Source of the DNA: Micrococcales bacterium KH10
Lineage (GTDB): Bacteria; Actinomycetota; Actinomycetes; Actinomycetales; Cellulomonadaceae
DNA: 64,000 nt
Assembly (NCBI GenBank): GCA_900188465.1
Contig: FZPE01000001.1
Coordinates: forward strand, 868,001 to 932,000
Reading direction: 5' to 3'
The notes under the pieces were generated by a model. That model made no database searches. It had not been told where the DNA came from and saw only the letters and a program-made list of their open reading frames with translations. Both the position numbers and the translations under genes were made by a program. Positions 7,301 to 64,000 of the stretch are shown here, in pieces. Positions within the stretch are counted from its first letter, which is position 1. Each line of letters opens with the position of its first letter.

Positions 7301-7439
7301 GAAGGGCAAAAACTGGGTCGCCGTGGTGCGGGTCAAGAAGTCCGCCAATAAGACCCGCGGCAAAGTGCGCGTCGTCTATCCAGGTTCCAAGCTAGTGCGA
7401 AAGCAGACATTCAAGACGAAGGTCCGCGTGGCCCGCTGA
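4395..7439 (+). CDS. Secreted GH81 endo-beta-1,3-glucanase, copy 1
   Basis: Secreted enzyme that cleaves internal beta-1,3-glucan bonds of fungal/yeast walls or laminarin. The 1014-aa product starts at a GTG with AGG-rich sequence upstream. The signal peptide ends at AFA-DP (about residue 45). The GH81 catalytic domain runs to about residue 860 with NDWWSSLVFR near the N-terminus, NDHHFHYAYYI (Asp535, candidate acid) and NNQEASSEAMN (Glu610/Glu614, candidate bases) by analogy with characterised GH81 enzymes. A Gly/Pro/Thr linker then leads to a Lys/Arg-rich module at about 900-1014. It is first of three consecutive GH81 genes; the 120-bp gap to copy 2 shows no clear terminator. Confidence 0.93.
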   Translation: MSHFATTAHPSRLHSATSRKVLGIGLALMLAAALPLITEAPVAFADPVQVGSGSYTTDKVGTEPGEAGKFCTTTPRESFSLGGNTIPALVTKNAPIPTNDWWSSLVFRKRVQSGGQSNCSISSRLFANPGVFGWHERGLGITYSNTVSAAENPGHAIPNYSGQGYEYRGPSADGHDLYAGSSFSSGNPSPAMIGTELQVTDWTDWTVESRLVNASGNAEVRAIIGRGMPITWLESQGAAARIQTSDSATHALHDGNSTLIITINGRSYVAWAPHGTTWQTVAPAQVDAGAKAFRANSGRYAVAIVPDGANAAEIAAQWKQFAYSPVTSTTLDYTYNQTAGTLEANYNIGVTRYAGSGSTTSTVMALFPHQEQYRSDNSVARSQTYVSPRGQMTILDNVSGFSTATPFHGVMTEIPGLTTTPGEEHHDQLIDYLDEVRNDPLNQSMVEDNGDATYWTGKAVGRAARIAELADQVGDIDARDKALAAIRSTLSDWFTATPGKTQKVFAYSENFGTLLGYPAGPGGGDQYGTLASMNDHHFHYAYYITAAATLARFDQQWAQNYGGMVEMLIRDTASPDHDDPMFPFLRTFDIYAGHSWASGDGGDSHGNNQEASSEAMNLAQAMIQWGEITGNTSIRDTGIYLYTTEATSALRYWFNAEGDFPASGPYAKNYASMVWANGAHYSLWFGENPITGNEHEFFYGINMLPVTGGSLYLGYYPDVVQRTYDEFTQTNGQPEPKYWHDILYSYLALADGEQALAKFQATNANNTYAVESGESRAHTFHWLTSLAALGQVDTKVTANYPMATTFNKGGQRSYVVTNVSNKDIEVTFRDKSGNVVATVNAPKGQVTTQKPDGSVVSLGDGSSGGTGIAIPSDPDDGGNPGNGGTKPPVTTPPPTDNSKTNAKKRKAKVVNIKVTKGRHKDAKRPARTIKVRTAARVRVALRAPKKTAVRGKVRLRVGKRVIGKAKLRKKGKNWVAVVRVKKSANKTRGKVRVVYPGSKLVRKQTFKTKVRVAR

Positions 7440-7559
7440 TCGAGCTCGTCGAGATGACAGTCGGTGATCTCGACATGCCGATTCTCGCAGATGAATCTAG
7501 GCTTGTGAACGGTGCAACGAAGCACCTGACAACGTTGTCTAGGAACCTGGAGTTTCGCC

Positions 7560-10500: not shown

Positions 10501-10616
10501 TGGTGAAAGTGCGCGGCGCCAAGAACGTGAAACGCGGCAAGATCCGGGTTCGTGTGAAAGCGAGCAAGACGGTAAGCCCCGCCAACTACAGCACGAAACT
10601 CAGGGTGGTGCGGTAA
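7560..10616 (+). CDS. Secreted GH81 endo-beta-1,3-glucanase, copy 2
   Basis: The 1018-aa product starts at GTG, has a short signal peptide (cleavage near AVA-NP, about residue 28) and a full GH81 domain. NDWWSSLVFRG and NDHHFHYGYYI (Asp500) are intact, as is NNQESSSEGMN (Glu575/Glu579). An acidic Asp/Gly/Asn linker (about residues 838-880) encoded by 18-bp repeats is followed by a Thr/Pro/Gly stretch. It ends in the basic module (about 908-1018, starting KVQLKLRGVKITKG) shared with copies 1 and 3. Only 2 bp separate its stop from the start of copy 3, so the two are co-transcribed. Confidence 0.93.
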   Translation: MQLVSSLVGAMALVLTMSLAQAPIAVANPITAPGGGSYLQHPHGGQWKGPAGEAVHGSDFCNYTPRSQHPQHPGNAQRGPLIGSNAPSGGIPTNDWWSSLVFRGWVANPGVCDLGSPLYAHPAAYQLHARGMGITYTNALTGPRFTPGTTTDQGYAYHSPGWGDVGNENHDIIAGTDFYASTLTVENWTDWTVETLLKDSGNRSVRSIIGHGLPFSWHESVNGPSQIAARGNVSVWRRDGAQLGLQISGRNYIAYAPHGSSWTDHGGNRFTAAAGWFSVAVIPDGANREQIADAWQQFAWSPVTGTQVTPVYDQSAGMLRATYGVTVSRKAGSGSTNSTVMALYPHQTKHLTGATPLAQTYTSPRGKMAVLAGTSSFTTETPFYGVISEIPAVATAAGSSKDKLWSYLEQVKDNPLWMQSDETYWAGKAFGRAARIVEVADQIGHTEARDKALDDLEDQLSDWFTATAEKNYKVFNYNAAWGTMIGYPVGVFGSESEMNDHHFHYGYYIAAAATLARHRPQWANQYGGMVDMLVRDANSHLRNDPMFPYLRSFDIYAGMDWASGHARFSAGNNQESSSEGMNFAGAMIQWAEVRGDQVMRDTGIFMYTTQAEAISKYWFNADNDAFPSSQYNRNYASMVWGDGAQYSLWFGNNDQHEFFYGINTLPLTGSHLYLGYRPDVVARTLGEFYQRRGGAEPRWWHNIIYGYQALNDPSTALTKFTHATDTGSGIGWEEGSSHPHTYNWIRNLVDLGQVDTSVVGNYPLATTFAKNGQRSYVVTNSSNQSITVTFKEVATGTVLAQVTAGPGKIATRKPDGSTVSFGTAAGGSGIDIPVTDPGGDDGGDNGDGGDNGDGGDNGDGGDGGDNGGGGDGGDDGGGSTPGTGTTPGTGGTPGANGNAPDATNNPSATATKVQLKLRGVKITKGKQTKRTIKQRRAARIRVQFKAPKNRAVKTKVQLRVGKQILGSKRIKQTKPGRYVAVVKVRGAKNVKRGKIRVRVKASKTVSPANYSTKLRVVR
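10083..10136 (+). repeat. 18-bp tandem repeat encoding GGDNGD linker
   Basis: Three near-identical 18-bp units (GGCGGAGACAACGGCGAC and a one-base variant) encode consecutive GGDNGD blocks in the linker of GH81 copy 2. Degenerate Gly/Asp codons follow to about 10200. The acidic flexible spacer joins the catalytic domain to the basic module. Confidence 0.85.
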
Positions 10617-10618
10617 CT

Positions 10619-13600
10619 ATGGCGCGGGTCTCGTTGAAGACGACGGCGCGATCATGCGCGCGATCGATCGCAGCAACAACTGCAGCACTGCTCATCTTCG
10701 GCGGGGCTGTAACAGCCGCACCCGCCCAAGCGGGCATTGAAAGTCCGGGTGGCGCAGGCAGCTATACGACCGACAATGTCGGTGCCATTCCCGGCGGAGC
10801 CTGTGGGCAGACGAGCCTGCGCGACCATTTGACGCCCGATGCGCCGAACCGGCCTGTCCCCACCAATGACTGGTGGACATCGCTCGTCTTCAAATTCTCG
10901 GACGCGAACGGGACTCAGGGGTGTGGACAGAATCTGGCGCTGAACGCCTTACCCGTGCAATACAGCGTCGAGGACGGCAAGAAAGCCCACCAATACGACG
11001 GCGACTCCGACATCCCCGGAGTGCATATCTCCTACCATCCTCTGGTGGATGTGGCTGGTGTGCCAGGCGGCCAGCCGCAAGATCAGAACTTCCATCAGTA
11101 CATGCGTAAAGATGTGCTGGTTGCTCAGGTTGATGGGCTTGGGCAAACTGACGCGAAGGTGTCTAACTGGTCGGATTGGACGGTTTCGACTCGGCAATCT
11201 GATGGATCGCGCACCTTGGATGCGACGATCGGGCAGGGATTGCCGTTCTCCTGGTTCCGGGCCACCGGCGGCAATGCGAAGTTGAAGGCGAATGGCTGGA
11301 CTAACGTCGAGTTCATCGTCGATGGTGCAGTGACCAACGCCCCGACCGGATCCTTGGTAGTTATCGCCACCGGGCCGACAAATGAGCAGGGTCAAGTAGC
11401 GGATCGCCGTTACTACGCGGCGTTTGCGCCGGTCGGAGCATCTTGGTCCAAGTCCGACGAGTTCGGGCACTGGAACGACCTCATCGCAACCAGCGCAGGT
11501 CATTTCTCAGTGGCGGCGCTGCCGCTACCAGCCGGCGCAAGCACGGCCCAGGCTTGGTCGGTTGCCGAGCAGTTCGCACCCTATGCGCACTCGCCGGTCA
11601 CTGACACTCGAGCCGACTACACCTATGACCAGTCCACTGGCGAGGTCGCAGTGACATATCGAGTCACGGCCGACCCACTGCCGGGATCAGGCGGCTCAGC
11701 GGGCACGGCGATGGCGCTGCTCCCCCATCAGTACGCGGTCTATAGCTCAGCGGAGCCCTCGTCCCGTAACTCATTTATCTCGGAACAGTACTCATCTCCG
11801 CGCGGGGTGATGAAGACGCTGGTTGGCGTGACGAGTTTCACCACGATCGACCACTTCCGCGGTGTGCTGACGGAAGTGCCCGCGGTGGCAACCGGTGTGC
11901 CAGATTCGGCCGAACGCCATCGACTCAATGCCGAACTCAGCGGATATCTGGGCAACGGTTCGCTCGCCGACCAGTTGCATACTTACAACACCCCCACCTA
12001 CGGCGTCGGCAAAGCGCTGGGTCGAACCGCGCGGATCGTGGAGGTCGCCGACCAGTTGGGACGCACCGATGTGCGCGATAAAGCGCTGGGAGACATCCAC
12101 GACACGTTGACTGACTGGTTCACTGCCCAGCAGGGTAAGAGTACGCAAGTGTTCCGGTACTCGTCCCCCTGGTCGTCCCTGATCGGATACCCGGCTGACT
12201 TCTTCTCCGATACCGAGCTCAACGACCATCATTTCCATTACGGCTACTACGTCATGGCGGCCGCGACCCTGGCTCGTTTCGATCCTACTTGGGCCAGTGA
12301 TTACGGTCCGATGGTCGAACTGCTGATCCGCGATGTGAACTCGCCGAACCGCTCTGACGCCATGTTCCCCTATCTGCGCTACTTCAACGCGTACAGCGGG
12401 CACGACTATGCGGCAGGACCAGCACCGTATGACGCTGGGAACAACCAAGAATCCTCGTCCGAGGCGATGAACGCCACCGCGGGGATGCTGATGTGGGGCG
12501 AGGTCACGGGCAATCGTACAATTCGTGATGCCGCGGTGTACATGTACACCACGCAGGCCGCCGCGATCAACGCCTACTGGTTCAACGATGCAGGTGGCGC
12601 ACTACCGTCAGGGTTCAACGATCAGGTGGTCCCGGTGGTGTGGACCAATGGCGGCACTGGTGGATTGTTCTTCGGCAACGGCGAACGAGCATACAAGTAC
12701 GGGATCAATACCCTGCCCATTACCGGGGCGTTCTTGTATCTGACACCGTCCTCCGTGACGCGCAACTACAATGCGCTTCAGGCTGCGCCACGGATCAGTG
12801 GTGAGAACGCGAACGAGTGGCGTGATGTGCACCTGAGCGCGCTAGCACTCGCCGACGGCGCGGCAGCTCTGGACGGTCTGAATCAGTTGGGCGATTACCT
12901 GATCGGCCCGGACCCGAACCTCCCCTATACCAACGAGCACGGCATGAGCAAGGCTCATACCTACCACTGGATCGCGAACCTTGCCGCGCTGGGCACAGTG
13001 GATCGTTCGATTACTGCGAACTATCCGCTGGCTGCTGTCTTCTCCAGTGCACAGGGCCGCACCTACGTGGCGTCGAATCTCGGATCAGCACCGATCAACG
13101 TAACCTTCTCAGACTGCATCCGACTTGATGTCGCCCCTGGTCAAACGGCTTGGAGCGGGGTATGGTCTGGCGATGCCGGGGAGTCTACGGGTGGACAGAC
13201 ATTGCCGATCCCTGACCCTGGGTGGGAGGCATGCCTTGTTGACCCAGAAGATCCTGGCCCTGATCCCGGTGATGGGTCTGGACCGGACCTAGGCGACGGG
13301 GATGGGGATGGTTCGGCTGATCCTGGCGATCCCGATGACGGCCCCGAGGAACCGAACTCTCGCGAGCCAAAAACCCCGGACGCCGACCAGAACGGAACCG
13401 CGATGCCGCCGCCCTCGTCATCGTCGGCAAAGGTCAAGCTGAAGTTGCGTGGGGTGAAGATCACACGGGGCAGGCAGACCAAGCAAACCGTCAAACTGCG
13501 CACGATGGCGCGTATCAAAGTGCGGTTCAAGGCTCCGAAAGGGCGGACCGTGAGGACCCAGGTAAGGCTGCGAGTTGGGAAGCAGACGATCGGCAAGAAG

Positions 13601-13753
13601 CGGGTCAAACAGGTCAGGCCTGGACGATATGTTGCCGCGATCAAGGTCCACAAGGGCAAGAACGTCAAACTTGGCAAGATCAAGGTCCGAGTCAAGGGCA
13701 CTAAAACAGTGCGAGCAGCCACTTACAAGACTCGATTGCGTGTGGTACGTTGA
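10619..13753 (+). CDS. Secreted GH81 endo-beta-1,3-glucanase, copy 3
   Basis: 1044 aa, starting 2 bp after copy 2, with the GGTGG ribosome site inside that gene. Signal peptide ends at AQA-GI (about residue 40). The GH81 domain keeps NDWWTSLVFKF, NDHHFHYGYYV (Asp536) and NNQESSSEAMN (Glu611/Glu615), so it should be active. It is more diverged than copies 1 and 2: longer between the N-terminal motif and the core, and a Cys-containing insert before the linker. An acidic Asp/Gly/Pro linker precedes the shared basic module (about 934-1044, KVKLKLRGVKITRG). Divergence suggests a different glucan preference; this is inference. Confidence 0.92.
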   Translation: MARVSLKTTARSCARSIAATTAALLIFGGAVTAAPAQAGIESPGGAGSYTTDNVGAIPGGACGQTSLRDHLTPDAPNRPVPTNDWWTSLVFKFSDANGTQGCGQNLALNALPVQYSVEDGKKAHQYDGDSDIPGVHISYHPLVDVAGVPGGQPQDQNFHQYMRKDVLVAQVDGLGQTDAKVSNWSDWTVSTRQSDGSRTLDATIGQGLPFSWFRATGGNAKLKANGWTNVEFIVDGAVTNAPTGSLVVIATGPTNEQGQVADRRYYAAFAPVGASWSKSDEFGHWNDLIATSAGHFSVAALPLPAGASTAQAWSVAEQFAPYAHSPVTDTRADYTYDQSTGEVAVTYRVTADPLPGSGGSAGTAMALLPHQYAVYSSAEPSSRNSFISEQYSSPRGVMKTLVGVTSFTTIDHFRGVLTEVPAVATGVPDSAERHRLNAELSGYLGNGSLADQLHTYNTPTYGVGKALGRTARIVEVADQLGRTDVRDKALGDIHDTLTDWFTAQQGKSTQVFRYSSPWSSLIGYPADFFSDTELNDHHFHYGYYVMAAATLARFDPTWASDYGPMVELLIRDVNSPNRSDAMFPYLRYFNAYSGHDYAAGPAPYDAGNNQESSSEAMNATAGMLMWGEVTGNRTIRDAAVYMYTTQAAAINAYWFNDAGGALPSGFNDQVVPVVWTNGGTGGLFFGNGERAYKYGINTLPITGAFLYLTPSSVTRNYNALQAAPRISGENANEWRDVHLSALALADGAAALDGLNQLGDYLIGPDPNLPYTNEHGMSKAHTYHWIANLAALGTVDRSITANYPLAAVFSSAQGRTYVASNLGSAPINVTFSDCIRLDVAPGQTAWSGVWSGDAGESTGGQTLPIPDPGWEACLVDPEDPGPDPGDGSGPDLGDGDGDGSADPGDPDDGPEEPNSREPKTPDADQNGTAMPPPSSSSAKVKLKLRGVKITRGRQTKQTVKLRTMARIKVRFKAPKGRTVRTQVRLRVGKQTIGKKRVKQVRPGRYVAAIKVHKGKNVKLGKIKVRVKGTKTVRAATYKTRLRVVR

Positions 13754-13951
13754 CCGCGCGCATCCGCTAGCCCTGCGTTTACCCCTTTAACGGAGAAATA
13801 GTTGATACTCACTTTTGGCCTCGCTTCCATCCTGATTGGCCAGTACGCTCACTTTGTAGGGGATCATGCCAACCAGCAGGTCGGAGTCGTTTCTTCCCGC
13901 TGTTTGGTTTGATGTCCAACTCGATCCGCCGTTCTCAACGAGGAGAATTCT

Positions 13952-16138
13952 GTGAAGTTCAAGCGCCTCTTGTCCACCTTCGCGGCCGCAGCGCTGTTGT
14001 TTAGTTTCGGCGAACTCGCTGGGCTTCCTGCCCAAGCTGCAGCGCTCGAAAAGGTTCCATTCACGATCAACAACAACTCTGGGATCCAGGACGCCCCGCT
14101 GTTCGTTGGGATCATGGGAACCAACCCAGCCACCGGGCGCGACGCTTACCTGGTTCAACAAGGAAACGATTGGGTGCTTCAGGACATCCCTCATGCCGCA
14201 CCGTTTCCCGCACCACCACAGCCACTCAATGGCGTGATGTTCGCAGGTCCGGCTGCTGGCAGTTCGCTCACAGTGCTAACTCCACACATTGACTCCGGAA
14301 GGCTGTACTACTCCTGGGGCGAGCCGCTGAAGTTTGATTTCGTTCAGAACGATCTCGGAAAGGACAAGATCGTCTATCCCGACCACAAGAATGAACCCAG
14401 TCGATCCATCCTGCACGGTAGCGCGGAGTACACGTACGACGAGAACAACGTGTTGTGGTACAACTCCACCCAGGTGGACTTCTTCGGACCTCCCGCGCAG
14501 GTAGGTATCGCAGACGAAAGCGGACACATCCTGTCAACAGGACGTCTGGCTCTAGACGGGTTTGACTATGTGCATACCGAACTCGCCAAGCATGGGGAAT
14601 GGTCCAAACTCGTTGAATGGGGGCCTTACAACAACGTAGTAAGGGTGCTCAATCCCTCTCACAAACTTGGACACGACGGGTTCAACGCGGGAAACATGCA
14701 ACCGTACATTGATCAGGTGTGGGAAAAGTACAAGAACACCGATATGCGGATTCGCCCTATCGGCGATGACCCCAACCTCGTCTTTACCGGTCGCGTTGGT
14801 AGCGATAACGTCTTCCGATTCACGACACCCGATTCTCGTTTTGGTGATGTTGCGATTAACAAGCCAACTCCTTGGGAAGCCTTGGCGTGTGCCGGTCCTA
14901 TGACGGGCGGTGCTGAGCAAGGTTGGATCGCCCGCACCCTGTGCGCCGGCTTCAACAGGTCGAACATGATGACATATGAGGATCACCCCACGACGAACGA
15001 CAAATTTTACGCGGACTCGCAGTGGCGGAACTGGTACGTGAAGATCGTTCACGAAGCGATGGCAACTGGACATGCCTATGCCTTTGCTTTTGACGACGTT
15101 GGAGGCTACGAGTCGCTCACTGCGGTAGGAAACCCAAGCCACGCCTACTTGCAACTCGATCCTTTCAGCGGTTCAGTCGAACCGATTGGCGAAGAACCAG
15201 ACGGTAGCGGCCATGGCGGAGACAACGGTGGCGGAGACAACGGCGGTGATGACGGCAGCAACCCCGGCGGAGACGACGGTAGTAACCCCGGTGGCGGAGA
15301 CGACGGTAGTAACCCCGGTGGCGGAGACGACGGTAGTAACCCCGGTGGCGGAGACGACGGTAGTAACCCCGGTGGCGGAGACGACGGTAGTAACCCCGGT
15401 GGCGGAGACGACGGTAGTAACCCCGGTGGCGGAGATGATGGCGACGGCGGGGATGGTGGCAACCCTGGCGGCGGAGACGACGGAGAGAATCCAGGTGGCG
15501 GAGACGACGGCGGTGACAACGGCGACAACCCGGGCGGCGACCAAAGCCCAGGCGGTAACGGTGACGACGGTGCCGATACAGACAAAGACACTCGGAACCC
15601 ACCCGGTTCGATAACGCTGGGCACTATGCTCAGCGCATCGGTCAATGTCTCACCTGAACGCCCGACGGGTAAGCGCCAGTGGCACACCAAGAACGTCCAA
15701 GTCAGTGCACAGGGCGTCGCACCGGCAGGCACTGCTGCCACATTGCAGATCAAGGTTGGTAAGGCTGCGTGGGCGACATACGCTGGACCAGTCACGCTGA
15801 AGAAGGCCGGAAAGACAAGGGTTCAGGCACGCGTCATTGCTGGCAATCGAGTTTCACCCGTTGATTCATTACGAGTGAAACTCGACAAGAAGGCTCCGAC
15901 GAAACTCAAAGCCAAGACCAACAAGCGCGGCATCAAACTGCGGGCCAAGGACAAGACCAGCAAGGTCGCCAAGATTCGTTACCGGATCAAACGCGCGGGT
16001 GGCGGTTGGACGAAGTGGCGTGCTTACAAGGGCAAGCGCATCAAGGCCCGCGCCAACTTCCAGCGCATCCGGGTTCGCGCTATCGACACGGCTGGCAACA
16101 AACGAGTCAAGACCTTCAAAGTGAAGGCTCGTAGGTAG
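13952..16138 (+). CDS. Secreted GH64 beta-1,3-glucanase (laminaripentaose-producing type)
   Basis: The 728-aa secreted protein starts at GTG after GAGGAG. Signal peptide ends near AQA-AA (residue 30). Residues about 30-405 form a GH64 domain (thaumatin-like beta barrel plus alpha/beta lobe): VPFTINNNSG, YYSWGEPLKFDF, WYNSTQVDFFG. Glu159 and Asp176 are plausible counterparts of the catalytic Glu/Asp pair of LPHase. Residues about 411-549 are an Asp/Gly/Asn linker with seven DDGSNPGG units. Residues about 551-728 are a basic module with two Ig/FN3-like repeats (WATYAGPV, WTKWRAYKG, VRAIDTAGN), unlike the GH81 modules in sequence. GH64 releases laminaripentaose, complementing GH81 cleavage. Confidence 0.9.
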   Translation: MKFKRLLSTFAAAALLFSFGELAGLPAQAAALEKVPFTINNNSGIQDAPLFVGIMGTNPATGRDAYLVQQGNDWVLQDIPHAAPFPAPPQPLNGVMFAGPAAGSSLTVLTPHIDSGRLYYSWGEPLKFDFVQNDLGKDKIVYPDHKNEPSRSILHGSAEYTYDENNVLWYNSTQVDFFGPPAQVGIADESGHILSTGRLALDGFDYVHTELAKHGEWSKLVEWGPYNNVVRVLNPSHKLGHDGFNAGNMQPYIDQVWEKYKNTDMRIRPIGDDPNLVFTGRVGSDNVFRFTTPDSRFGDVAINKPTPWEALACAGPMTGGAEQGWIARTLCAGFNRSNMMTYEDHPTTNDKFYADSQWRNWYVKIVHEAMATGHAYAFAFDDVGGYESLTAVGNPSHAYLQLDPFSGSVEPIGEEPDGSGHGGDNGGGDNGGDDGSNPGGDDGSNPGGGDDGSNPGGGDDGSNPGGGDDGSNPGGGDDGSNPGGGDDGSNPGGGDDGDGGDGGNPGGGDDGENPGGGDDGGDNGDNPGGDQSPGGNGDDGADTDKDTRNPPGSITLGTMLSASVNVSPERPTGKRQWHTKNVQVSAQGVAPAGTAATLQIKVGKAAWATYAGPVTLKKAGKTRVQARVIAGNRVSPVDSLRVKLDKKAPTKLKAKTNKRGIKLRAKDKTSKVAKIRYRIKRAGGGWTKWRAYKGKRIKARANFQRIRVRAIDTAGNKRVKTFKVKARR
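15248..15430 (+). repeat. 27-bp tandem repeat in GH64 linker, seven copies
   Basis: Seven DDGSNPGG(G) blocks. The last five or six DNA units are identical in every base read, including synonymous positions, while the first unit is a variant (GACGGCAGC and 24 bp long with its neighbour). Base-perfect copies point to recent slippage or unequal crossover, so linker length probably varies among strains. Confidence 0.92.
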
Positions 16139-35609: not shown

Positions 35610-37725
35610 TTTGGTAGAGGGCGGCGGAGCCGGAGCGGGCGATCTCCTCTAGGCCGCGACTGGTGTCGACGGCGGCGAAGCCGGCGGTGACCTGTGCGCT
35701 GCGTGCACCACCCGCGAGCAGATCATCGTCGAGGTACGCGTACTCGACCCCGGTGGCGCGCAGCGCCTCGCACACCTGGGGATCCGTATCGAGTGACGCG
35801 AAGTGTTCAGAAAGGTACGCCGCATCAGGCGATAGTCCGGTGAGGTTCGTGCGCTGGTACACCGCCGCCACGCCGCCCAGACCGCTGGCCAGCACTCCCC
35901 CGGACATCGGATCGGCGATGACCACTGCACCTGGCGGCAACAACCTGGCAAGCCGGTCGAGCAGGTCCCGGTCATCGACGTCAACGATCAGCGCGTCGCG
36001 CGCCGCCAGTGCCGCCGGATCGAAGACCCCACGCGAACGCTGCACCATGCCGGGCAACTGTGTGCCCACAGACAGCACCACCGTGACAACGGTGATCCCC
36101 GCAGTAGCTCGCGGCCGACTCCAGCCAAGCGCAGCACCGCGCACACCACGCTGAGCACGTGCAACACCGCCCTTGCGTGCAACTCTCCAAGCGCCACCAT
36201 GCACAGCCAGCCAACGTGCTATCACCAGCAACCCGACAGCCGCCAGTAGCAAGGCGCTGATCGGGTAAAGCGCCTCAAGCCGGAACACGTGTTTGTACCA
36301 AAAGCCGGTCAACCCGCGCAGCGCGTTCTCGGGGCCACCGGCTAGAGCCGCAAGCACAATGGTCATGCCCCACATCGCCACAAGCCAGCGCGACGAGCGC
36401 CGCCGCAGCAACGTCACCACCCCGACAATCACAGCAACGCTAATGATGATATTGCCCGGCAGTTGCCACAAGGCAACATCGCTCAGCAGCCGTGAAGTCG
36501 TGAACAGATAGGACCTGGTCTCAATGGTCTGCTCGTAATTCATCACCGCGCGCAGCACGGGCCACAGCGGGCTGAAACGGATAAATGCGACCAGAGCCAC
36601 GCTAACCAGTACGGCGCCTGCCGCGACCCACCACCAGGCAGACCATCGCGGACGAGTGCTCCCTCGCTCCTGCGCCCCAAGCCCGCCAGAAGTCGACCGA
36701 CGATCAAGCCACCGGCGACCGGCCCGCCACAGCGCGCCAGCCACAATAGGCAGCGCCAGCGCCAGGTAAGAAAAGATCGTATTGGGGTGCGCGAAGACCG
36801 CCGCTGCGCCGGTGAGCGCCAGCAGCACCCCATACAGCCCCGAACGAGGCTTCCGCACGACCAGGATGGTGGCAGCCAGTGCCGCAGGCAGCAACGCGGT
36901 CCCTAATGCGTTGGGCGATTGTGCGCTCAAGATGTGCTGAGTGAAGGGGAAGAACGATAGCGACGAGCTCAACGCGACCACGATCACACTCAGTGCGACT
37001 TGCCGCGGGAAGGCAACTCGTACCAAAAAGAATATGGAGATCGGCCACACGGCCGCCATCACGGCCAGGGCGCTGATCGTGACCGCCTGAGCGGGAACCA
37101 TCGCAGGCATCAGTGCCGTCACAGCATGCCAGGCACTCGGATAGTAGGTACCCGCGCCCGCATGGGACACCACCGCATCCAGGCCGCCAAACATGCTTGC
37201 CTGCCCCGATGAGGCGATGTGGGCGACGGCATTGAGATGTACGAAGCCGTCGCGCACTTGTAGTGGTGCGGCAAGATCTGGCAGCGCCGCCAACACACCC
37301 ACCAGTGAGATCAGTGCCGCAGCCGCGCCCGCAGACCAGGCTATGACGGTGGTACGGCGGGGCAACGACACGATGAACGCGTTCGCGGAGCACGGAACCT
37401 GAGGCGAAGACGTCCCGTCTGGTCCGTCAGATGGCCCTCGTCCTGAACGTTGGCCAGCGATGCCCATCCGAACTCGTCGGAACAACCAACGAATAGCCCA
37501 CGCCGCGACGGCAACACAAACCCACCCAAGCGCCGCGCTGCCGATATCCCAACCCACGCCAATGTAGGGGTACAAGGTCGTCGCCAGCGCGACAAACACC
37601 GTGGTGACGCTGGCAGCGGCTCCGATCGAGAACACACCACGTACTCCCGCAAGCCTTAACAGTACGTACCCGGGCAGGAGCCAAAGCGCCGCAGCGAGCG
37701 GCAACCACCAGATGACCTGAACCAC
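35593..37725 (-). CDS. DUF6541-family polytopic membrane protein
   Basis: 710 aa from a GTG, with about 12-14 hydrophobic segments through residue 560 and a final globular domain outside the membrane (SGGVLASGLGGVAAVYQRTNLTGL, YAYLDDDLLAGG). The layout and N-terminal WWLPLAAALWLLPGYVLLRLAGV fit actinobacterial DUF6541 proteins, thought to resemble GT-C type polyprenyl-sugar transferases; activity is unproven. It lies between truA and rplQ on the same strand, beyond the rplQ terminator. Confidence 0.8.
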   Translation of the reverse strand: MVQVIWWLPLAAALWLLPGYVLLRLAGVRGVFSIGAAASVTTVFVALATTLYPYIGVGWDIGSAALGWVCVAVAAWAIRWLFRRVRMGIAGQRSGRGPSDGPDGTSSPQVPCSANAFIVSLPRRTTVIAWSAGAAAALISLVGVLAALPDLAAPLQVRDGFVHLNAVAHIASSGQASMFGGLDAVVSHAGAGTYYPSAWHAVTALMPAMVPAQAVTISALAVMAAVWPISIFFLVRVAFPRQVALSVIVVALSSSLSFFPFTQHILSAQSPNALGTALLPAALAATILVVRKPRSGLYGVLLALTGAAAVFAHPNTIFSYLALALPIVAGALWRAGRRWLDRRSTSGGLGAQERGSTRPRWSAWWWVAAGAVLVSVALVAFIRFSPLWPVLRAVMNYEQTIETRSYLFTTSRLLSDVALWQLPGNIIISVAVIVGVVTLLRRRSSRWLVAMWGMTIVLAALAGGPENALRGLTGFWYKHVFRLEALYPISALLLAAVGLLVIARWLAVHGGAWRVARKGGVARAQRGVRGAALGWSRPRATAGITVVTVVLSVGTQLPGMVQRSRGVFDPAALAARDALIVDVDDRDLLDRLARLLPPGAVVIADPMSGGVLASGLGGVAAVYQRTNLTGLSPDAAYLSEHFASLDTDPQVCEALRATGVEYAYLDDDLLAGGARSAQVTAGFAAVDTSRGLEEIARSGSAALYQITACR

Positions 37726-53696: not shown

Positions 53697-54005
53697 TCAG
53701 AGCTTGATCTCGATGTTCACATCCGCAGGAAGATCGAGTCGCATCAGCGAGTCAACTGCCTTCGGAGTGGGATCGATAATGTCGATCAACCGCTTGTGCG
53801 TGCGCATTTCAAAATGCTCGCGGCTGTCCTTGTACTTGTGCGGCGACCGGATCACCACAAACACGTTCTTCTCGGTCGGCAACGGCACCGGGCCCACGAC
53901 TGTCGCACCAGCGCTGGTTACCGTGTCGACGATCTTGCGCGCCGAACTGTCGATAACTTCGTGGTCGTAGGACTTGAGCCGGATGCGGATCTTCTGTCCC
54001 GCCAT
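53697..54005 (-). CDS. rpsJ: 30S ribosomal protein uS10
   Basis: Head protein and NusE antitermination factor. 102 aa from the ATG at 54005 ([19 protein letters not shown]); the frame is open 84 codons upstream with no similarity. [22 protein letters not shown] is diagnostic. First gene of the S10 operon. Confidence 0.98.
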
Positions 54006-54451: not shown

Positions 54452-54487
54452 GGCGATGGCCCCTACTTCGCAGTAGGGGCCATCGCC
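54452..54487 (-). terminator. Intrinsic terminator of the 12-repeat surface protein gene
   Basis: 15-bp perfect stem (GGCGATGGCCCCTAC at 54452-54466, complement 54473-54487), 6-base loop, then ATTTCTCCTT on the minus strand, 28 bp after the stop codon. Confidence 0.9.
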
Positions 54488-54515: not shown

Positions 54516-57500
54516 TCATGCTGTGCGACGACGGGTCACGATAACCAGTCCAGCGCCAAGCAGTGTCAGTCCCAGCGCACCGATGGCGGTGACTGTCACG
54601 GTTGCTCCGGTACGGGCCAACTCGTCCTCGTCACCTGAGTCACCATCTGGGTTGTCCTCAGGGTCTGACTCCGGGTCGTCCTCATCTCCCTCGTTGCCCG
54701 TATCCGTCGCTGCGGAGACGGTGACAGAGAACTCGGCTTCGTCGATCAGGTTGTTGCCATCGGTAACCCGGTAGCGCAACTTGGCCTCACCGGTAAAGCC
54801 CTCTTCTGGAGTGAAGGTGACCTTGCCGGTCTCCGGGTCGACTGTCCAAGTTCCCTGACCGGGGATGGTCACGGAGTTGCCCGGAACCGGCTCGCCCGTT
54901 TCCGGGTCAAGCAGTTCGACCTTGAGATCGGTGCTGGTGCCAGGCGTGGTCAGTTCTTCCAGCGGATCGAACTCGACCGGCGTACCCGGACGTGTGGTCT
55001 TCGACTGGTCGATGGCGGTCGGCGGCTGGTTCACCCGAACCGTCAGTGTGCCGCTGTCGGTCAAGTCGTTGCCGTCGGTGACCGTGTAGGTCACCGGAGT
55101 CGGGTCATCGGTGAAGCCAGGCTCCGGGGTGAAGGTGGTGCGACCTGTGTCAGGGTCGATCGTCCAAACGCCCTCACCCGGAACCGTCTTGGTCGTCGGG
55201 TCACCAGCGTCGTGACCGTCGAGAGTCACCGTCAGGTCGGTGCTCGTACCAGGGGTGATCACCGGATCCAACGTGGCGTTCTCACCTGGGTTGACGGTCA
55301 CGGTCTGGTCGCCACCGGTCGGAGGGTAGTTGACATTGACAATGAGTGTTCCGCTGTCGGTCAGACCGTTGCCGTCGGTCACCGTGTAGGTGATCGGAGT
55401 CGGGTCGCCCGTCAAGTTCGGGTCAGGAATGAAGGTGAACTCTTCCTCATCAGGGTCGTAAGTCCACACACCCTCACCCGGAACCATCTTGCGGTGCGGG
55501 TTACCCGTGTCATGACCGTCGATCTCGATGTCAAGGTCGGTACTGGTGCCTGGAGTAATCGGCGGGGTCAGCACTGCCTCTTCACCAGTGTTGACGGTGG
55601 TGCTGTCATCTGGTGCGGTCGGCGGGTAGTTGACGTGAACGGTCAGGTTGCCACTGTCAGACAGGTCGTTGCCGTCGGTCACCGTGTAGGTCACCGGAGT
55701 CGGGTCACCGGTCAGAGCTGGGTCAGGAGTGAAGGTGAACTCACCGGTACCGGGGATGTACTCCCACACACCCTCACCCGGAACCGTCTTGCGGTGCGGG
55801 TTACCCGTGTCATGACCGTCGATCTCAACCTCTAGGTCAGGATCATTACCAGGTGTGATGATCGGATCCAGCGTTGCCGTCTCACCAGTGTTCACCGTCT
55901 CAGTGTCATCACCAGCAGTCGGCGGCACGTTCACCAGAACGTTCAGCGTTCCCGTGTCGCTTAGATCATTTCCGTCAGTGACGGTGTAGGTGATCGGGTC
56001 TGGGTTTCCAGTGAAGCCCTGCTCCGGGGTGAAAGTGAAGTTACCGCTACCCGGCACATAGCGCCAAGTACCCTGTCCAGGAACGACGAGCTCATGTGGA
56101 GTCGCACCAGGAGCGTCGTCAATCACCACGGTCAGGTTGGTGCTCGTACCAGGGGTGATCGCCGGGTCAAGCGTGGCAGTCTCACCCGGGTTGACGATCT
56201 CCGTGTCGTCCGGCGCCACTGGCGGGTAGTTGACGTGAACCGTCAAGTTTCCGCTGTCAGACAGGTCGTTTCCATCGGTCACCGTGTAGGTCACCGGAGT
56301 CGGGTCGCCCGTCAGAGCTGGGTCAGGAGTGAAGGTGAACTCACCGGTACCGGGGATGTACTCCCACACACCCTCACCCGGAACCGTCTTGCGGTGCGGG
56401 TTGTTCTGGTCGTGACCATCGATGGAGACATCCAGGTCAGGGTCATCGCCTGGGGTGATGACTGGATCCAACGTTGCTGTCTCACCGGTGTTCACCGTCT
56501 CGGTGTCGTCACCGGCAGTCGGCGGGACATTGACCGAGACACTCAACGTTCCCGTGTCTGAAAGGTCGTTTGCATCAGTGACGGTGTAATCCGTTGGGGT
56601 GGGGTTTCCGTTGAAGCCCTGCTCCGGAGTGAAGGTGAAGTCACCCGTTCCCGGGTGATACTCCCACACACCCTGACCCGGAACCGTCTTGCGGTGCGGG
56701 TTGTTCTGGTCGTGACCAACGAGGGCAACCGACAGATCGGTGCTCGTACCGGGAGTGATCGCCGGGTCAAGCGTGGCAGTCTCACCCGGGTTGACGACCA
56801 CAGAGTCATCTGGTGCCACTGGCGGGTAGTTGATGTTGACCGTCAGCGTTCCGCTGTCAGTCAAGTCATTGCCGTCCGTGACGGTGTAGGTCACCGGGGT
56901 CGGCTGACTGGTGAAACCAGGCTCCGGAGTGAATACGGTCTGGCCTGTGTTCGGGTTGATAACCCAGACGCCCTCGCCGGGAACCGTCTTGGTGGTCGGG
57001 TTGCCAGCGTCGTGGTCATCGAGTTCAGCAGTCCAGTTCGAGTCGCTTCCAGCGACGATGATCGGGATCAGTGTCGCGCTAGGCGTACCGGCAGTGATGG
57101 TGACCGACTGGTCGCCCGCAGCCGGTCCAACCACGATTGACAGCGTGCCGTCAGCAGTCTGACCGTTGGCGTCGGTGACGCGGTAGTCGATGGACGGCAC
57201 TGGGCCGCGGTAGTTTGCATCAGCAACGTACGTGGTCTGACCCGTGGTCGGGTTAATCGTCCACACACCGCCGTGAGTATCGGTGTAAGTATTCGAAGCA
57301 ATCGGATCGCCGGTAGTCGGATGCAACAGCGTGTAACCCGTGATGCTGCCCGAGCCGGGAACCGTGTTCAGGTCGCTCGGCGCGAAAGTCGCGGTTTCGC
57401 CCGGCTCGACAGTCTCACTGGCATCGCCGGTTTGCGGACCGTAGGTCACGCCGAGGTTTCCAGTGTCACTCAGGGAGTTGCCGTCGGTGACGGTGTAACT

Positions 57501-59483
57501 GATCGGTGTGATGGCGCCGGAATAACCGGTCTGAGGCGCAAACGCAATCTGGCCGTTGGCCGGGTTGAGCGTCCAGGTTCCTTCGCCCGCCACTGTCTGT
57601 GTTGTGCCACCCGGAGTGTCTGGGTTGGTCAGCGTAACGGTCAGTGTCGAAGACGAGCCTTCATCGATCAAGTCGGCAATCGGGTCGAAGTTGACTGAAG
57701 CGCCCTGTGCAGCGGACTTTGTCTGATCACCTGCGCTAGGCGGCATCAGGATCGAGAGTGTGCCATCAGCGGTGTGATCGTTGCTGTCGGTCACACGGTA
57801 GTCGATGGACGGCACTGGGCCGCGGTAGTTCGCATCAGCAACATAGGTGGTCTGCCCCGTGCTCGGGTTAATCGTCCACACACCACCGTGAGCATCGGTG
57901 TAAGTGTTCGAAGCAATCGGATCGCCCGTAGTCGGATGCAACAGCGTGTAACCCGTGATGCTGCCCGAGCCAGGAACTGTCTCAAGGTCACTGGAAGCAA
58001 ATGTTGCAGTGTCACCTGGCGAAACGGTCTTTGACTCGTTACCGGTTTCTGGACGGTACTGCACAGTCAGTGTGCCGGTTCCAGTTTCCCAACCCTGGTC
58101 GGTCACCACATAGTCAATCGAGACTTCGGTGACGTCACCGGGGGTATGCGGTGTGTATGTCACCTCACCGGTGGCACGGTTAATCGTCCAGGTTCCTTCA
58201 GCGACCACCACAGTCGTTGCGCTAGTCGGATTGCCGTCCGCCGGGTCGACGAGTTGGTACGGCTCAGGCTGGAGGGGGACAACACCCTCCTCAACGAGGT
58301 CGGATAGATCAAAGCTGGCGGACTGACCCTGGTTACGCACCTCAGTTGCATCCGCAGCGGAAGGGCCACCCAGGATGCGCAGATCACTGATCAGGTGCGA
58401 ACCGGTCGCACCACCCGTGGACGAGGCGAAACCGAACTTGAACTGCGCTGGAAGATCTTCCGGCAATGCTTGTTCGTTGATGACTGTCTCATAGTTGGTG
58501 CCGGTACCGGTGAAGTCCACTTCAACGGTCACAGTCGGGTTCGGGTTCGGTGTGATGATGATTCGCACGTCACGCGCTGTCGCCTCAACATCAGCCACCG
58601 ACGGAACCACATCGTCGAGTTCTGCCCATAGTGATTTCTGACCCCAACTCGTCGGGGACGAACCAAATTGCCCATGGGTATCGAGTTTCTGGTTCGCAAT
58701 CAGGCAGTAGCCTTCGAGCGTTGTATTACCGACTGGGCCACGCAAACCAATCGAGTTGGTGTTCGCCAACGATGCCGGGTTCCAACCCTGTGTATCCCAA
58801 TACGTGTTGTTGGAGTCAGGTGACGTATCCGCCGTACAGGTCGTGCCACCGACGTGGGCGGGGTTCGCGTAGTTTCCGAAGGTGTCCAGTCCGATGCCGA
58901 GGTAACCACCCTCAATTCCAGGATCGTTCGATGCCACGCGACGGGCATATCCGAGCGACCCGCCAAGCGCTCCCACCGAGGTCAGGTTGGTCTGACCATC
59001 GACGAGGAAGAAACTGATACCGTCAGCAACGCGACGGAGCGCACCGTCACCCTGCGGCTGGCCGTACTGATACTGCTTGAAGTCAATGCGTAGACCTGCT
59101 GCGGCGTCAACGGCCGTGTTATAAAGCGCACCGCCGCGACGGTTATACCAGTTATCCGTCAACTGCAAGAAGCCTGTCTCGTCACCGCCAGCGACGGGAG
59201 TTCCCAACCCGGCATCTGCGGCCAAATCTCGGTCACATGCGTATGGGCCGCTCGTGGCATCTGTCAGACATGCGTCATCGAGGAGCTGCCATCCAGTGCC
59301 AGCAAGCGTGGACCGACGGAAGTTCTCTGCATGCAGGACGTTGGCGTCGTTCGCGGATGCCGTGGCAGGCGCCACCACCTGCCAGGCGAGCATCGTTGCA
59401 ATCAAGGCGAATACTGCAGCCAACGCTGCGGCAACCCGCAACGTCTGACTACGGTCAGCCTGCGCGGCTAACGTTCGAGTCAT
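54516..59483 (-). CDS. Giant cell-wall-anchored protein: L-type lectin-like head, 12 CshA-type repeats, LARTG
   Basis: 1655 aa. Signal peptide about 1-44. Residues about 45-373 form an L-type (legume) lectin-like jelly roll: [67 protein letters not shown]. Residues about 374-1591 are twelve repeats of about 100 aa, each with (G/E)GVW or GTW, [14 protein letters not shown] and [12 protein letters not shown], the CshA-type fibril consensus. An acidic Asp/Glu spacer then leads to LARTG (1622-1626), a hydrophobic helix and RRR: a sorting signal of the LAxTG kind used by class E sortases. A likely adhesin; ligand unknown. Its paralogue lies directly upstream on the same strand. Confidence 0.88.
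54712..58365 (-). repeat. Twelve coding repeats of about 300 bp (CshA-type domains)
   Basis: Repeats 5-11 are closest in DNA. Blocks 55681-55800 and 56281-56400 differ at only 2 of 120 bases, 600 bp apart. Repeats starting YPPVAPDD and VPPTAGDD alternate (units 6/7 and 8/9), showing that a two-domain unit was duplicated. Confidence 0.9.
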
Positions 59484-59752
59484 TCTCTCTCTAAACCTCT
59501 CGGGGGATCTGAAACTAGCGTCACCCGGTATGGGCGCATAGCTGTGTCACGGCAGCACCGGACAGGGACTATACCGGGGGCTAACCAGGTCAATGGTCGC
59601 AACCGCTCGTCTAGATTGTCAAGGGTGCAAATGCGCTTTATTAGGCTCATTATCGTTGTAATTGCAAGCCGCAGAGGTCCTCGACCACCTAGCCGTCAAC
59701 GATCGTTGTGAGTCCATGGCTCGTCGCATCGCACGAAAACGTAAAAAAACGG
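59484..59752 (-). other. Upstream region of the 12-repeat surface protein, no gene seen
   Basis: About 270 bp between the two surface-protein genes after the terminator at 59753-59798. Minus-strand TTGACA near 59614-59619 and TATAGT at 59568-59573 could be promoter parts, but spacing between them is not standard. AGAGAGAG precedes the start codon as ribosome site. Confidence 0.4.
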
Positions 59753-59798
59753 GCGATGGGGGTGTCGCCAGCTTCTCAGCTGGCGACACCCCCATCGC
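59753..59798 (-). terminator. Strong intrinsic terminator of the 5-repeat surface protein gene
   Basis: A 20-bp perfect stem (59753-59772 with 59779-59798, core GGGGGTGTCGCCAGC), loop TTCTCA, then CCGTTTTTTTACG on the minus strand. It isolates the two surface-protein genes from each other. Confidence 0.95.
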
Positions 59799-59854
59799 AG
59801 GTCGCGCTATCGCGAGTGGGCTATTACTGCGCAATGCTCACGATGTTGCTTCCG

Positions 59855-62764
59855 TCACACCTCTAGGCGTCGGCGGGTAATCACAATCAGACCAGCACCC
59901 AGCAGCAGCAAACCGAATGCTCCGATAGCCGTTGCCGTGATGGTCGCTCCGGTCCGTGCCAGTTCATCACGGTCACGACCATTGTTGCCTGAGTCTTCGT
60001 CGGAATCATCGTCAGCGTCGTCACGACCGTTGTCGGTGTCTTCAGAATCGTCGTCGCCAGCTCCAGAGTCGCTGGCGGGGATGGTCACCGACAGTTGAGC
60101 TTCGTCATACAGGTCGTTCCCGTCCGTCGCACGGTAACGCAGCGTGGCGGTACCGGTGAAGCCATCGGCCGGGGTGAAAGTGACCTTGCCGGTCGATGGG
60201 TCGACTGTCCAGGTTCCTTCACCTGGCACGGTGACCGAGTTGCCCGGTACCGGATCGCCCGTGCTCGGGTCGAGCAGTTCGATGCGGATGTTGCTGTCGG
60301 ATCCCGGCGTCACCAGGTCGACTGGCGGGTCGAAGTCAACGGGAGTTCCCGGTTGAGTGGTCTTCGACTGGTCGTTCGCCGTCGGTGGTGTGCGGGTGAG
60401 TACAGTCAAGGTACCCGAATCCGTCAGCCCGTTGCTGTCAGTAACCGTATAGGTCACTGGAGTCGGGTTATCGGTGAAGCCGGGCTCCGGGGTAAAGGTA
60501 GCCTGACCAGTGCCGGGATCAATGGTCCAAACGCCCTCACCGGGGACGGTCTTGCGGGTCGGGTCGCCCGGGTCCGATCCGTCCAGGGAGACCGTCGGGT
60601 TCGGGTCGGTGCCGGGGGTGATGACCGGATGCAGCGTAGCTGGGTCCCCTGGGTTGACTGTCACGGTCTGATCGCCGGCCTGTGGCGGCACGTTGTACTC
60701 CACGGTCAAGGTCGCTGTATCAAACAGGTCGTTCCCGTCGGTCGCACGGTACTGAATAGGTGCCGGGTTGTCAGTGAAACCGGGCTCTGGGGTAAAGGTG
60801 ATGACACCCGTTCCAGGCACGAGTGTCCAGGTGCCTTCACCAGGAACTGTCAACGTGTTCGGGTCGCCTGGGTCGGAGGACTCCAGCGTGATCGTGATGT
60901 CGGTGCTCGAACCGGTGTCGACGAGATCAGCGATCGGATCGAAACTGACCGCATCACCTGGGTTTCCGGCCTTGGTTTCATCCTCGGCGAGCGGGGGGAC
61001 GATGATCGACAACGTACCCGTTGCGGTTTCGTTGTTACCGTCAGTGACCCGATAGTCAATCGACGGCACCGGACCGCGGTAGGACTCGTGCGCCTGGTAA
61101 GTTGTCTCACCTGTGTTCGGGTTGATGGTCCATACGCCACCATGAGCATCCGTGTAAGTGGTTACCGGGTTTCCGGTACCAGGCTCCAGCAAGGTGTACG
61201 TGAGGTCGTTGGACGAGCCTGGAGTGACCAGATCATTCTCGACATCAAACGTACCGGTGGAACCCGGCTGCACGATCCGGATGTCGTCCGCAGCTTCGGG
61301 TCGGTAAATAACTGACAGTTCGCCATCCGCGGATTGACCGGTGGAGTCAGTGACCCGGTAATCGATTGGGGTGACGGGACCGGTGAAACCTGAAGATGGC
61401 ACGAATGTGACATCACCAGTGTTCGGGTTGATCGTCCAGGTTCCTTCACCTGGGACGTCAACGCTGGTGACCGGGTTACCGTTGTTCGGATCGATCAAGC
61501 GGTAGGCATCTGTGCCAGGAATCGGCGACGCGCCAGGCGTCACCAGGTCCGCGGCGGTAAAGTTCGCGGTTTCGCCCTGGTTGAGGGTTACCGTGTCATC
61601 TTCGGCACCGGGCGCATTCAGAATCGACAGGGACCCGATGAGGTGGCTACCGGTGTTGTTTCCGGTCGACGCCGAGAAGCCGAACTTGAATCCAGCTGCT
61701 GGGATCGGAGCTGGAACCGTCTCCGAGAGAATCTCTTCGTAGTTGTTTCCGGTGCCCGAGTAGTCAATCGAGACGGTCACGGTCGGGTGGTCACCTGGGT
61801 TGGCAACTGGCGATACCACGATACGAACCTTGCGGCCTGCGCTGATGATGTCGCTCTGAGTGGGAGTAACATGCAGGTCACCCGCCCACAATGACTTAGA
61901 ACCCCACGAGCCGGGAACATGCGGGCTAAATGTGTCGGCAACGGACCCATCGGATCCGATGGTGTCTAGCTTTTCGCGTGCCAGGAGGCAGTATCCGGTT
62001 GTTCCGTTACCCGGTCCGCGCAGTGAAATGTTGTTCGTGTACAGCGCGTTGGCGTTCTCAAGCGTGTTCCAACCGGAACCGGCATAGAGGCCCGCCGGTT
62101 CACTGCCTGGAGCTGGGCAGTCGGTCCCGCCGACGTGGCCCTGGTTGGCGAAGTTACCGAAAGTGTCAAGACCGACACCCAAGTATCCGTTGGCGATACC
62201 CGGCAGCACCGGGCTCTGGTCGCGTCGCGGACCGTATCCGAGCGAGCCACCGATAGGACCGGTTTCGGTTAAGTTCACGGCACCATCGACCAGGAAGAAA
62301 CCGATTCCATCGGCCGCACGACGGTCTTCACGGTTACGTGTCGGACCGTACTGGTACTGGGTGAATTCGATTGCGAGGCCTTGTGATGCCGCAATCGCCT
62401 CGTTGTAGACCACACCACCGTTGGTGTTGAGACGGTTATCGGTGAGCTGAAGGAATCCAGTGCCGTCACCACGCGCAACTGGCGTGCCGAAGCCGCGCGA
62501 CGTGTTCGTCGCAGTCGGGTCAGCATCACGGTCACAAGCCCACGGACCGGAGGTGGCGTCAGTGAGGCAGGCTGCGCCAAGTCGAATCCAGGCGGATTCG
62601 GCCGGTGTAGCATTGGCGAAACTCTCGTCAACTGCCGCGGCGTGTGAACTCGGCGACATGGCCACTTGCCAGGCCATCATCGTCATAATGAGAGCAAAGA
62701 CCGCCGCCAGAGCGGTGGCAGAACGGCGCGCCATTATGGTCGCCGTTGGGCGATTCTTCGACAT
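59855..62764 (-). CDS. Cell-wall-anchored protein: L-type lectin-like head, 5 CshA-type repeats, LARTG
   Basis: 969 aa, shorter paralogue of the 1655-aa neighbour. Signal peptide to about residue 43 (SSHAAA). The lectin-like head (about 45-384) shares [74 protein letters not shown]. Five repeats (about 385-896) match the CshA-type consensus. An acidic Asp/Glu/Asn/Arg spacer precedes LARTG (935-939), a hydrophobic helix and RRR. Ribosome site GAAAGG lies before the ATG. Transcribed separately because strong terminators flank it. Probably a surface glycan-binding protein; the ligand is not known. Confidence 0.88.
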
Positions 62765-62955: not shown

Positions 62956-62995
62956 TCAGTGAGGCCCGAACCCCAAGGGGTTCGGGCCTCACTGA
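62956..62995 (-). terminator. Intrinsic terminator of tuf
   Basis: 19-bp perfect stem (62956-62974 with 62977-62995, core GGCCCGAACCCC) around AA, then TTTTTGTTG on the minus strand, 22 bp after the tuf stop. Confidence 0.95.
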
Positions 62996-63017: not shown

Positions 63018-64000
63018 TCACTTGATGATCTTGGTCACACGACCGGAACCAACGGTGCGGCCACCCTCACGGATAGCGAAGCCGAGGCCCTCTTCCATAG
63101 CGATCGGCTGGATGAGCTGAACAGTCATCTCAGTGTTGTCGCCAGGAAGCACCATTTCCTTGTCAGCCGGCAGCTGGATAACGCCGGTGACGTCGGTGGT
63201 GCGGAAGTAGAACTGCGGACGGTAGTTCGAGAAGAACGGGTTGTGACGTCCACCCTCGTCCTTGTTCAGGATGTAGACCTGAGCTTCGAAGTCAGTGTGC
63301 GGGGTGATCGAACCAGGCTTGACAACAACCTGACCACGCTCGACCTCGTCACGCTTGATGCCGCGAAGCAGAAGACCGGTGTTGTCACCAGCCTGCGCCT
63401 GGTCCATCTGCTTGTGGAAGGTCTCGATACCGGTGACGGTGGTCTTCTGCGCTTCACGCAGACCGACGATCTCAACCTCGGAGTTGACGTCGAGAACACC
63501 GCGGTCGACCTTACCGGTGACAACGGTTCCACGACCGGTGATCGTGAAGACGTCTTCAATTGGCATCAAGAAGGGCTTGTCCAACTCGCGAACTGGGTCC
63601 GGGATGTTCTCGTCCACTGCGTCCATGAGCTTCTCGACCGAAGCCACCCATTCTGCATCGCCTTCGAGAGCCTTCAGACCGGAAACTGGCACAACTGGTG
63701 CCTCGCGGTCGAAGCCCTGCGACTCGAGGAGGTCACGGACCTCTTCTTCGACGAGCTCAAGCATGTCAGGGTCGTCGACCATGTCAGCCTTGTTGAGAGC
63801 GACGAGCAGGTAAGGAACACCAACCTGGCGAGCCAAGAGCACGTGCTCTTTGGTCTGTGCCATGACGGAGTCGGTTCCAGCGACCACGAGGATTGCGCCA
63901 TCCATCTGTGCCGCACCGGTGATCATGTTCTTGATGTAGTCGGCGTGGCCTGGAGCGTCAACGTGAGCGTAGTGACGCTTATCGGTCTCGTACTCGATGT
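63018..64000 (-). CDS. tuf: Elongation factor Tu, 5' part beyond the window edge
   Basis: GTPase that delivers aminoacyl-tRNA to the ribosome. About 327 C-terminal codons are visible, running through [15 protein letters not shown] (G3), [11 protein letters not shown] (G4), domain 2 [13 protein letters not shown] and domain 3 ending [16 protein letters not shown]. The frame stays open to position 64000, so the first 70 or so codons lie outside. rpsL-rpsG-fusA would be expected upstream. Confidence 0.98.

Follow-up and report, generated by a model that had tools for sequence, protein, structure and literature searches.

YwfG of Lactococcus lactis, a Firmicute, carries an N-terminal L-type lectin with a calcium site and Asp/Gly/Asn sugar contacts, together with repeats and a C-terminal sortase signal; its mannose and calcium contacts include Asp117, Gly136, Asp152, Tyr154, and Asn156, and it is described as binding alpha-1,2-mannose and yeast mannan and as aggregating yeast (PMC9815576; this and the other papers are cited for excerpts of their text). 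SraP of Staphylococcus aureus, likewise a surface protein, presents a lectin head on a rod of immunoglobulin/cadherin-like modules, holds calcium via Asp, the main chain of Tyr, Asn, and Asp, and has a lectin-bearing region that promotes bacterial aggregation too (PMC4047093). CshA of Streptococcus gordonii combines a stalk of CshA repeats with a sortase anchor and a head that carries the NR1 and NR2 domains (fibronectin binding) (PMC10952558). Here, we analyzed a 64,000-nucleotide stretch (the window) of Micrococcales bacterium KH10 (contig FZPE01000001.1, positions 868,001 to 932,000, forward strand), a member of the genus Rarobacter with a 2.8-Mb genome, in which two tandem genes between rpsJ and tuf probably encode wall-anchored fibrillar adhesins, each with a lectin head on a CshA stalk that would bind a glycan at a calcium-dependent site.

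Each of the parts (fibrillar adhesin, L-type lectin head, CshA stalk, sortase anchor) is already known; what appears to be new is how they are combined, where the genes lie, and in which organism. A first-pass annotation of this DNA had called the pair an undescribed adhesion system: the adhesin reading stands, and "undescribed" goes too far, given SraP, YwfG, and the known CshA stalks. The window proteins share the YwfG layout, yet their stalks consist of CshA repeats rather than mucin/mucus-binding repeats and their sorting signal is LARTG rather than LPXTG. Their head residues agree in kind with the YwfG ligand residues, as matched by motif rather than by alignment to the YwfG sequence (7YL4-7YL6). 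SraP differs: it is a serine-rich repeat glycoprotein, contains a beta-grasp module, and has sialic acid as its ligand, whereas profile scans of the window proteins found no beta-grasp domain and no serine-rich repeat region is present (5.2% and 6.0% serine in the two stalks, with at most 8 and 6 serines per 50 residues). A Pfam scan to an E value of 1 returned a lectin match in the window heads and nothing named CshA NR1 or NR2, as judged without direct comparison to CshA. In the covered portions of the fibrillar-adhesin literature (PMC9210967, PMC8286594, PMC10952558), no lectin-headed CshA fibre was met.

Both heads are about 335 residues long and share 56.5% identity across 315 aligned positions. 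The first-pass annotation, which called the proteins paralogous, gave exact gene boundaries; its L-type-lectin head, CshA-type stalk, and LARTG anchor likewise hold up. The predicted fold class of the head is that of an L-type (legume-type) lectin. Beyond a match to PF18483 below its cut-off, a profile built from 21 related heads matched peanut lectin in the PDB (E value 7.3e-10), with the ADG, GG-LG, D-x-x-x-N, and GFSAS motifs superposed in the alignment, and a predicted head model gave its best Z score, 13.6, with ERGIC-53 (root mean square deviation of 3.1 over 195 residues). The best 50 Foldseek and best 50 VIA-align matches listed were all plant lectins, ERGIC-53/VIP36, or "carbohydrate-binding domain" entries. 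The head alignment comprised 21 of 31 head stretches, leaving aside those that were short, divergent, or frame-broken (L028, L029) and those that were copies of stretches already included (L001, L023). In its columns, D152 (numbering of the 969-amino-acid protein) occurred in all 20 heads covering that position, and G173, D200, N204, and S366-T367-G368 in 21 of 21. The conserved Asp, Gly, and Asn motif positions are those of the sugar-site residues in peanut lectin; the putative sugar and calcium residues are conserved, and the heads may bind both.

The stalks matched TIGR04225 far above its curated cut-off of 60 bits (404.6 bits over 12 stretches in the 1,655-amino-acid protein and 216.3 bits over 5 in the 969-amino-acid protein). 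All 36 CshA-repeat matches in four Rarobacter genomes (17, 5, 9, and 5; E values up to 0.001) fell in these lectin-headed proteins, with the 5 of the fragmented genome G046 on a short contig untied to the junction; three of the 36 exceed the cut-off singly. Pfam and TIGR/NF profile scans found no catalytic domain in either protein. Between positions 54917 and 57113, the longer array keeps an exact 300-bp spacing, and the copy at 56117 to 56416 is 82% like the one two units off, at 55517 to 55816, whose immediate neighbors match it at 60% and 73%, a pattern that may reflect duplication of the array two units at a time.

Each C terminus has the features of a class E sortase substrate, which would anchor the proteins to the wall. 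LAXTG is a motif sorted by class E sortases (PMC5148588), and the window genome encodes one such enzyme (G000:C4:300991-301641; 233.4 bits against a cut-off of 160) among three sortase matches; another is a class C sortase in a pilus cluster, and the third is of uncertain class. A class E sortase scored above the cut-off in all four Rarobacter genomes. Judged by the profile matches, the anchors, and the low nonsynonymous (dN) relative to synonymous (dS) divergence of the head, a sign of purifying selection, the two open reading frames (ORFs) are real, maintained genes, and chance ORFs are excluded.

Several observations weigh against this reading or narrow it. The PF18483 (Lectin_L-type_dom) matches of 38.4 and 34.8 bits (E values of 1.6e-9 and 2e-8) do not reach the Pfam gathering cut-off of 78.3, and by these scores the heads are best regarded as distant relatives of that family, not curated members. 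The head model, built from three sequences, is of low confidence (mean predicted local distance difference test score of 52.1, predicted template modeling score of 0.64), and no YwfG or SraP entry was among the matches listed for the head profile against the PDB, Foldseek, or VIA-align, which shows nothing either way. At the putative ligand site, the stacking Tyr of YwfG is replaced by Phe (F202) in all five junction heads (the G046 head being a fragment, here and in the tree); the remaining 16 heads have Trp, Tyr, or Leu there. The position nearest to the fourth calcium ligand of YwfG, Asp166, whose placement is uncertain, is D in four of the five junction heads, T in the 1,655-amino-acid protein, and always one of G, N, Q, S, or T among the 16 remaining heads. 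Mannose suggests itself as a ligand by analogy only and is not to be assumed, because the junction heads differ from the other 16 near this site (F202, V211-G212, G372-S373); four of the five also share an inserted WN segment. The junction proteins of R. faecitabidus and of a further Rarobacter genome, G004, end in LPTTG and LPQTG instead of LAXTG, and the sortase pairing is therefore not constant. A consensus promoter search found none in the window or in G004, and its sole match in R. faecitabidus falls within the gene itself.

The architecture and its unusual address seem special to the genus Rarobacter. rpsJ (53697 to 54005) and the C-terminal part of tuf (63018 to 63998) flank the two adhesin genes, all four on the same strand. 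Among 101 genomes of the family, rpsJ and tuf lay on one contig in 96 (G046, G001, G022, G026, and G036 had no usable tuf match); the median tuf-rpsJ gap was 522 bp, and it was at most 1.1 kb in 75 of the 96. The three largest gaps belonged to the three measurable Rarobacter genomes, at 9,015 bp in the window genome, 5,334 bp in G004, and 3,677 bp in R. faecitabidus. In the synteny comparison proposed at the outset, G004 and R. faecitabidus each have a single junction gene, with a related head (L034, L035) and CshA repeats, so that the junction adhesin is present in all three Rarobacter genomes with a contiguous junction. Among 30 head loci from the family search, tuf was seen only at those of three Rarobacter genomes (L001, L002, L003). 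In an order-wide search, which scored 7 candidates per genome and may have missed some, heads occurred in at least 12 of 297 genomes, and tuf lay within flanks of about 1.5 kb at only two of 20 loci, both from Rarobacter (L077, L082).

Of the 21 gaps above 1.1 kb, 18 were not from Rarobacter. Ten ORFs were scanned in the 1.2- to 3.4-kb gaps of nine genomes of other genera, chosen by length and third-position G+C and thus likely but unproven genes; eight had Pfam matches, to two PfkB sugar kinases, a nucleoside hydrolase, two short-chain dehydrogenases, a histidine phosphatase, an astacin-like protein, and an AbiEi-like protein (below cut-off). Since other genera fill the junction with unrelated genes, the site between these operons is one that tolerates insertions. 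The earlier picture of a surface-display module set within the most highly conserved chromosomal region was therefore overstated, while the unusual, genus-specific placement stood. Insertion within an operon was ruled out, as the genes come after the tuf hairpin and ahead of the S10 genes. The genes represent an insertion made long ago in the Rarobacter lineage, at this tolerant site between operons, and have no part in ribosomal gene function.

The junction heads formed one clade (support 100/99, or 100/97 with the G046 fragment), in which the 969-amino-acid protein paired with R. faecitabidus (96/95) and the 1,655-amino-acid protein with G004 (96/94). R. faecitabidus DSM 4813 is the nearest named relative, its head being 69 to 72% identical. 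Only the window genome, among the three with a measured junction, has both subtypes; the simplest reading of these pairings is that the gene pair predates the three species and that each relative kept one. The head of the 969-amino-acid protein compared with that of R. faecitabidus gave a dN of 0.21 and a dS of 1.52, with synonymous sites near saturation, and the low dN relative to dS favors purifying selection. In G046 (about 410 contigs), a 4,957-bp contig (L040) holds a lectin-CshA gene ending in LAQTG, followed by a second lectin head. On a separate G046 contig (L042:2-1525), an anchored protein with a DUF7507 stalk and LAATG stands directly before rpsJ. The two contigs may be linked, and one stalk type may have replaced another at the junction of this genome.

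Head relatives also occurred in 18 of the 97 non-Rarobacter genomes searched in the family. Nine heads from its other genera sit on DUF7507 stalks, some with DUF11, and none of the nine showed a CshA repeat at an E value of 1e-5, with five of these proteins cut by the locus end so that the distal stalk lies outside the view. The combination of this head with a CshA stalk was met only in the junction clade. Three Rarobacter genomes have a pilus cluster (L036:7813-13315, L037:7604-13298, L038:3768-9703) with a lectin-headed tip protein, an LPXTG pilin, and a sortase gene; in the window genome, where the families were checked, these are a SpaH/EbpB pilin and a class C sortase. The tip proteins belong to the same head family (37 to 39% identical to the 969-amino-acid protein's head) but differ in their DUF7507/SpaA stalk, their LPxTG-like end, and their position beside the pilin and sortase genes. 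A single head family is clearly seen here in three settings: pilus tips, DUF7507 stalks, and CshA stalks.

Lysis of living yeast is a known trait of Rarobacter. Four consecutive beta-1,3-glucanase genes lie in the window (4395 to 16138, plus strand; Table 1), a gene content that would be fitting for a yeast-wall-lytic life. One R. faecitabidus protein joins an alpha-lytic-type protease domain to a ricin-type lectin domain and has relatives in all four Rarobacter genomes (57% identical in the window genome, and with one internal stop in G046). Ricin-type lectin domains are also part of one GH16 and one GH30 enzyme in the window genome and of one GH64 enzyme in R. faecitabidus. Protease I of R. 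faecitabidus is named as a yeast-lytic enzyme that bears a mannose-binding domain (PMC1458353). In the titles and opening abstract lines listed for Rarobacter papers, neither an adhesin of the genus nor a means of holding the target is described, and a search combining Rarobacter with adhesin, sortase, and lectin gave no paper naming Rarobacter among the top-ranked matches listed. The junction proteins are offered as a candidate answer to how Rarobacter cells hold their target, testable in the culturable type strain R. faecitabidus DSM 4813 with its single-copy relative.

In the proposed mechanism, a signal peptide would export each protein, the sortase signal would anchor it to the wall, the stalk of 5 or 12 CshA units would hold the lectin head off the surface, and the head would bind a glycan at its calcium-dependent site; less certainly, the fibres may keep prey or food in place as secreted glucanases and a lectin-bearing protease open the wall. 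Gripping other cells, yeast among them, is the most likely use of the fibres. Because of the lytic gene set of the genus and the yeast aggregation by YwfG, a wall glycan of yeast or another fungus is the leading guess for the target, a tentative one that we hold at slightly less than an even chance. A more elaborate version is possible though doubtful: a dedicated prey-capture locus, in which lectin-tipped fibres with their own head specificities, as hinted by F202, the altered VG and GS loops, and the WN segment, would hold yeast for wall dissolution by beta-1,3-glucanases and lectin-bearing proteases. The heads, met elsewhere on DUF7507/DUF11 stalks or pilus tips, would in this version have been refitted to CshA stalks.

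Binding of the cell's own or other bacteria's polysaccharides, for cell-cell cohesion or biofilm instead of yeast capture, would give the two heads and two stalk lengths different contacts. The aggregation promoted by the lectin-module region of SraP (PMC4047093) is in keeping with such a role, as is the divergence of the five junction heads from the 16 others near the putative ligand site; set against these are the fungal-wall-lytic gene set of the genus and YwfG, which displays this kind of lectin on a bacterial wall, binds yeast mannan, and aggregates yeast (PMC9815576), and we consider bacterial cohesion rather unlikely. The presence of head relatives in 18 of 97 other genomes of the family would also allow a role common to polymer degraders, with the head keeping plant or fungal polymers near the surface as food and the protein serving substrate capture instead of cell-cell adhesion. 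A long anchored stalk is typical of adhesins, however, and neither protein has a detected catalytic domain, which leaves substrate capture improbable. A recent mobile element that landed as cargo between tuf and rpsJ is very hard to credit, for although the junction carries unrelated genes in other genera, the adhesin is there in every contiguous Rarobacter junction, its two subtypes pair across species, the G+C of the insertion resembles that of its neighborhood, and the head dN is low relative to dS.

Table 1. Coordinates, within the window, of the adhesin genes, their parts, nearby hairpins, and the glucanase genes
Feature	Position	Strand	Basis or detail
Longer fibrillar adhesin gene, 1,655 amino acids (candidate)	54516..59483	-	ORF; lectin and CshA profile matches
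Signal peptide region, 1,655-amino-acid protein, residues 1-42	59358..59483	-	By eye
L-type-lectin head (predicted), 1,655-amino-acid protein, residues 43-375	58359..59357	-	56.5% identical to the head of the 969-amino-acid protein
Stalk, 1,655-amino-acid protein, 12 CshA-type repeats	54702..58358	-	TIGR04225; exact 300-bp period over much of its length
LARTG sorting signal, hydrophobic segment, RRR tail, 1,655-amino-acid protein, residues 1622-1655	54519..54620	-	TIGR01167 match at residues 1621-1653, below cut-off
Hairpin 3' of the 1,655-amino-acid protein's gene, upstream of the S10 operon	54452..54487	-	16 pairs, weak T tract
Shorter fibrillar adhesin gene, 969 amino acids (candidate)	59855..62764	-	ORF; lectin and CshA profile matches
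Signal peptide region, 969-amino-acid protein, residues 1-43	62636..62764	-	By eye
L-type-lectin head (predicted), 969-amino-acid protein, residues 44-378	61631..62635	-	Putative ligand residues D152, G173, D200, F202, N204, S366-T367-G368
Stalk, 969-amino-acid protein, 5 CshA-type repeats of about 100 amino acids	60068..61630	-	TIGR04225
LARTG sorting signal, hydrophobic segment, RRR tail, 969-amino-acid protein, residues 935-969	59858..59962	-	NF058582 match at residues 935-966, below cut-off
Terminator-like hairpin 3' of the 969-amino-acid protein's gene	59753..59798	-	20 pairs, then CCG and seven T
Terminator-like hairpin 3' of tuf	62956..62995	-	18 pairs; closes the upstream transcription unit
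GH81 beta-1,3-glucanase genes (three)	4395-7439, 7560-10616, 10619-13753	+	
GH64 beta-1,3-glucanase gene	13952-16138	+	

The two genes had been said at first to end in a strong terminator each. A hairpin does lie 3' of each of them, and "strong" is uncertain for the gene of the 1,655-amino-acid protein, with its poor T tract. A hairpin scan of R. faecitabidus and G004 found one 3' of tuf in each and none of note 3' of the adhesin gene, so a terminator at that place is not a conserved feature. Elsewhere in the window, positions 35593 to 37725 (minus strand) encode a 710-amino-acid member of the uncharacterized family DUF6541 (PF20176, E value 8.6e-119).

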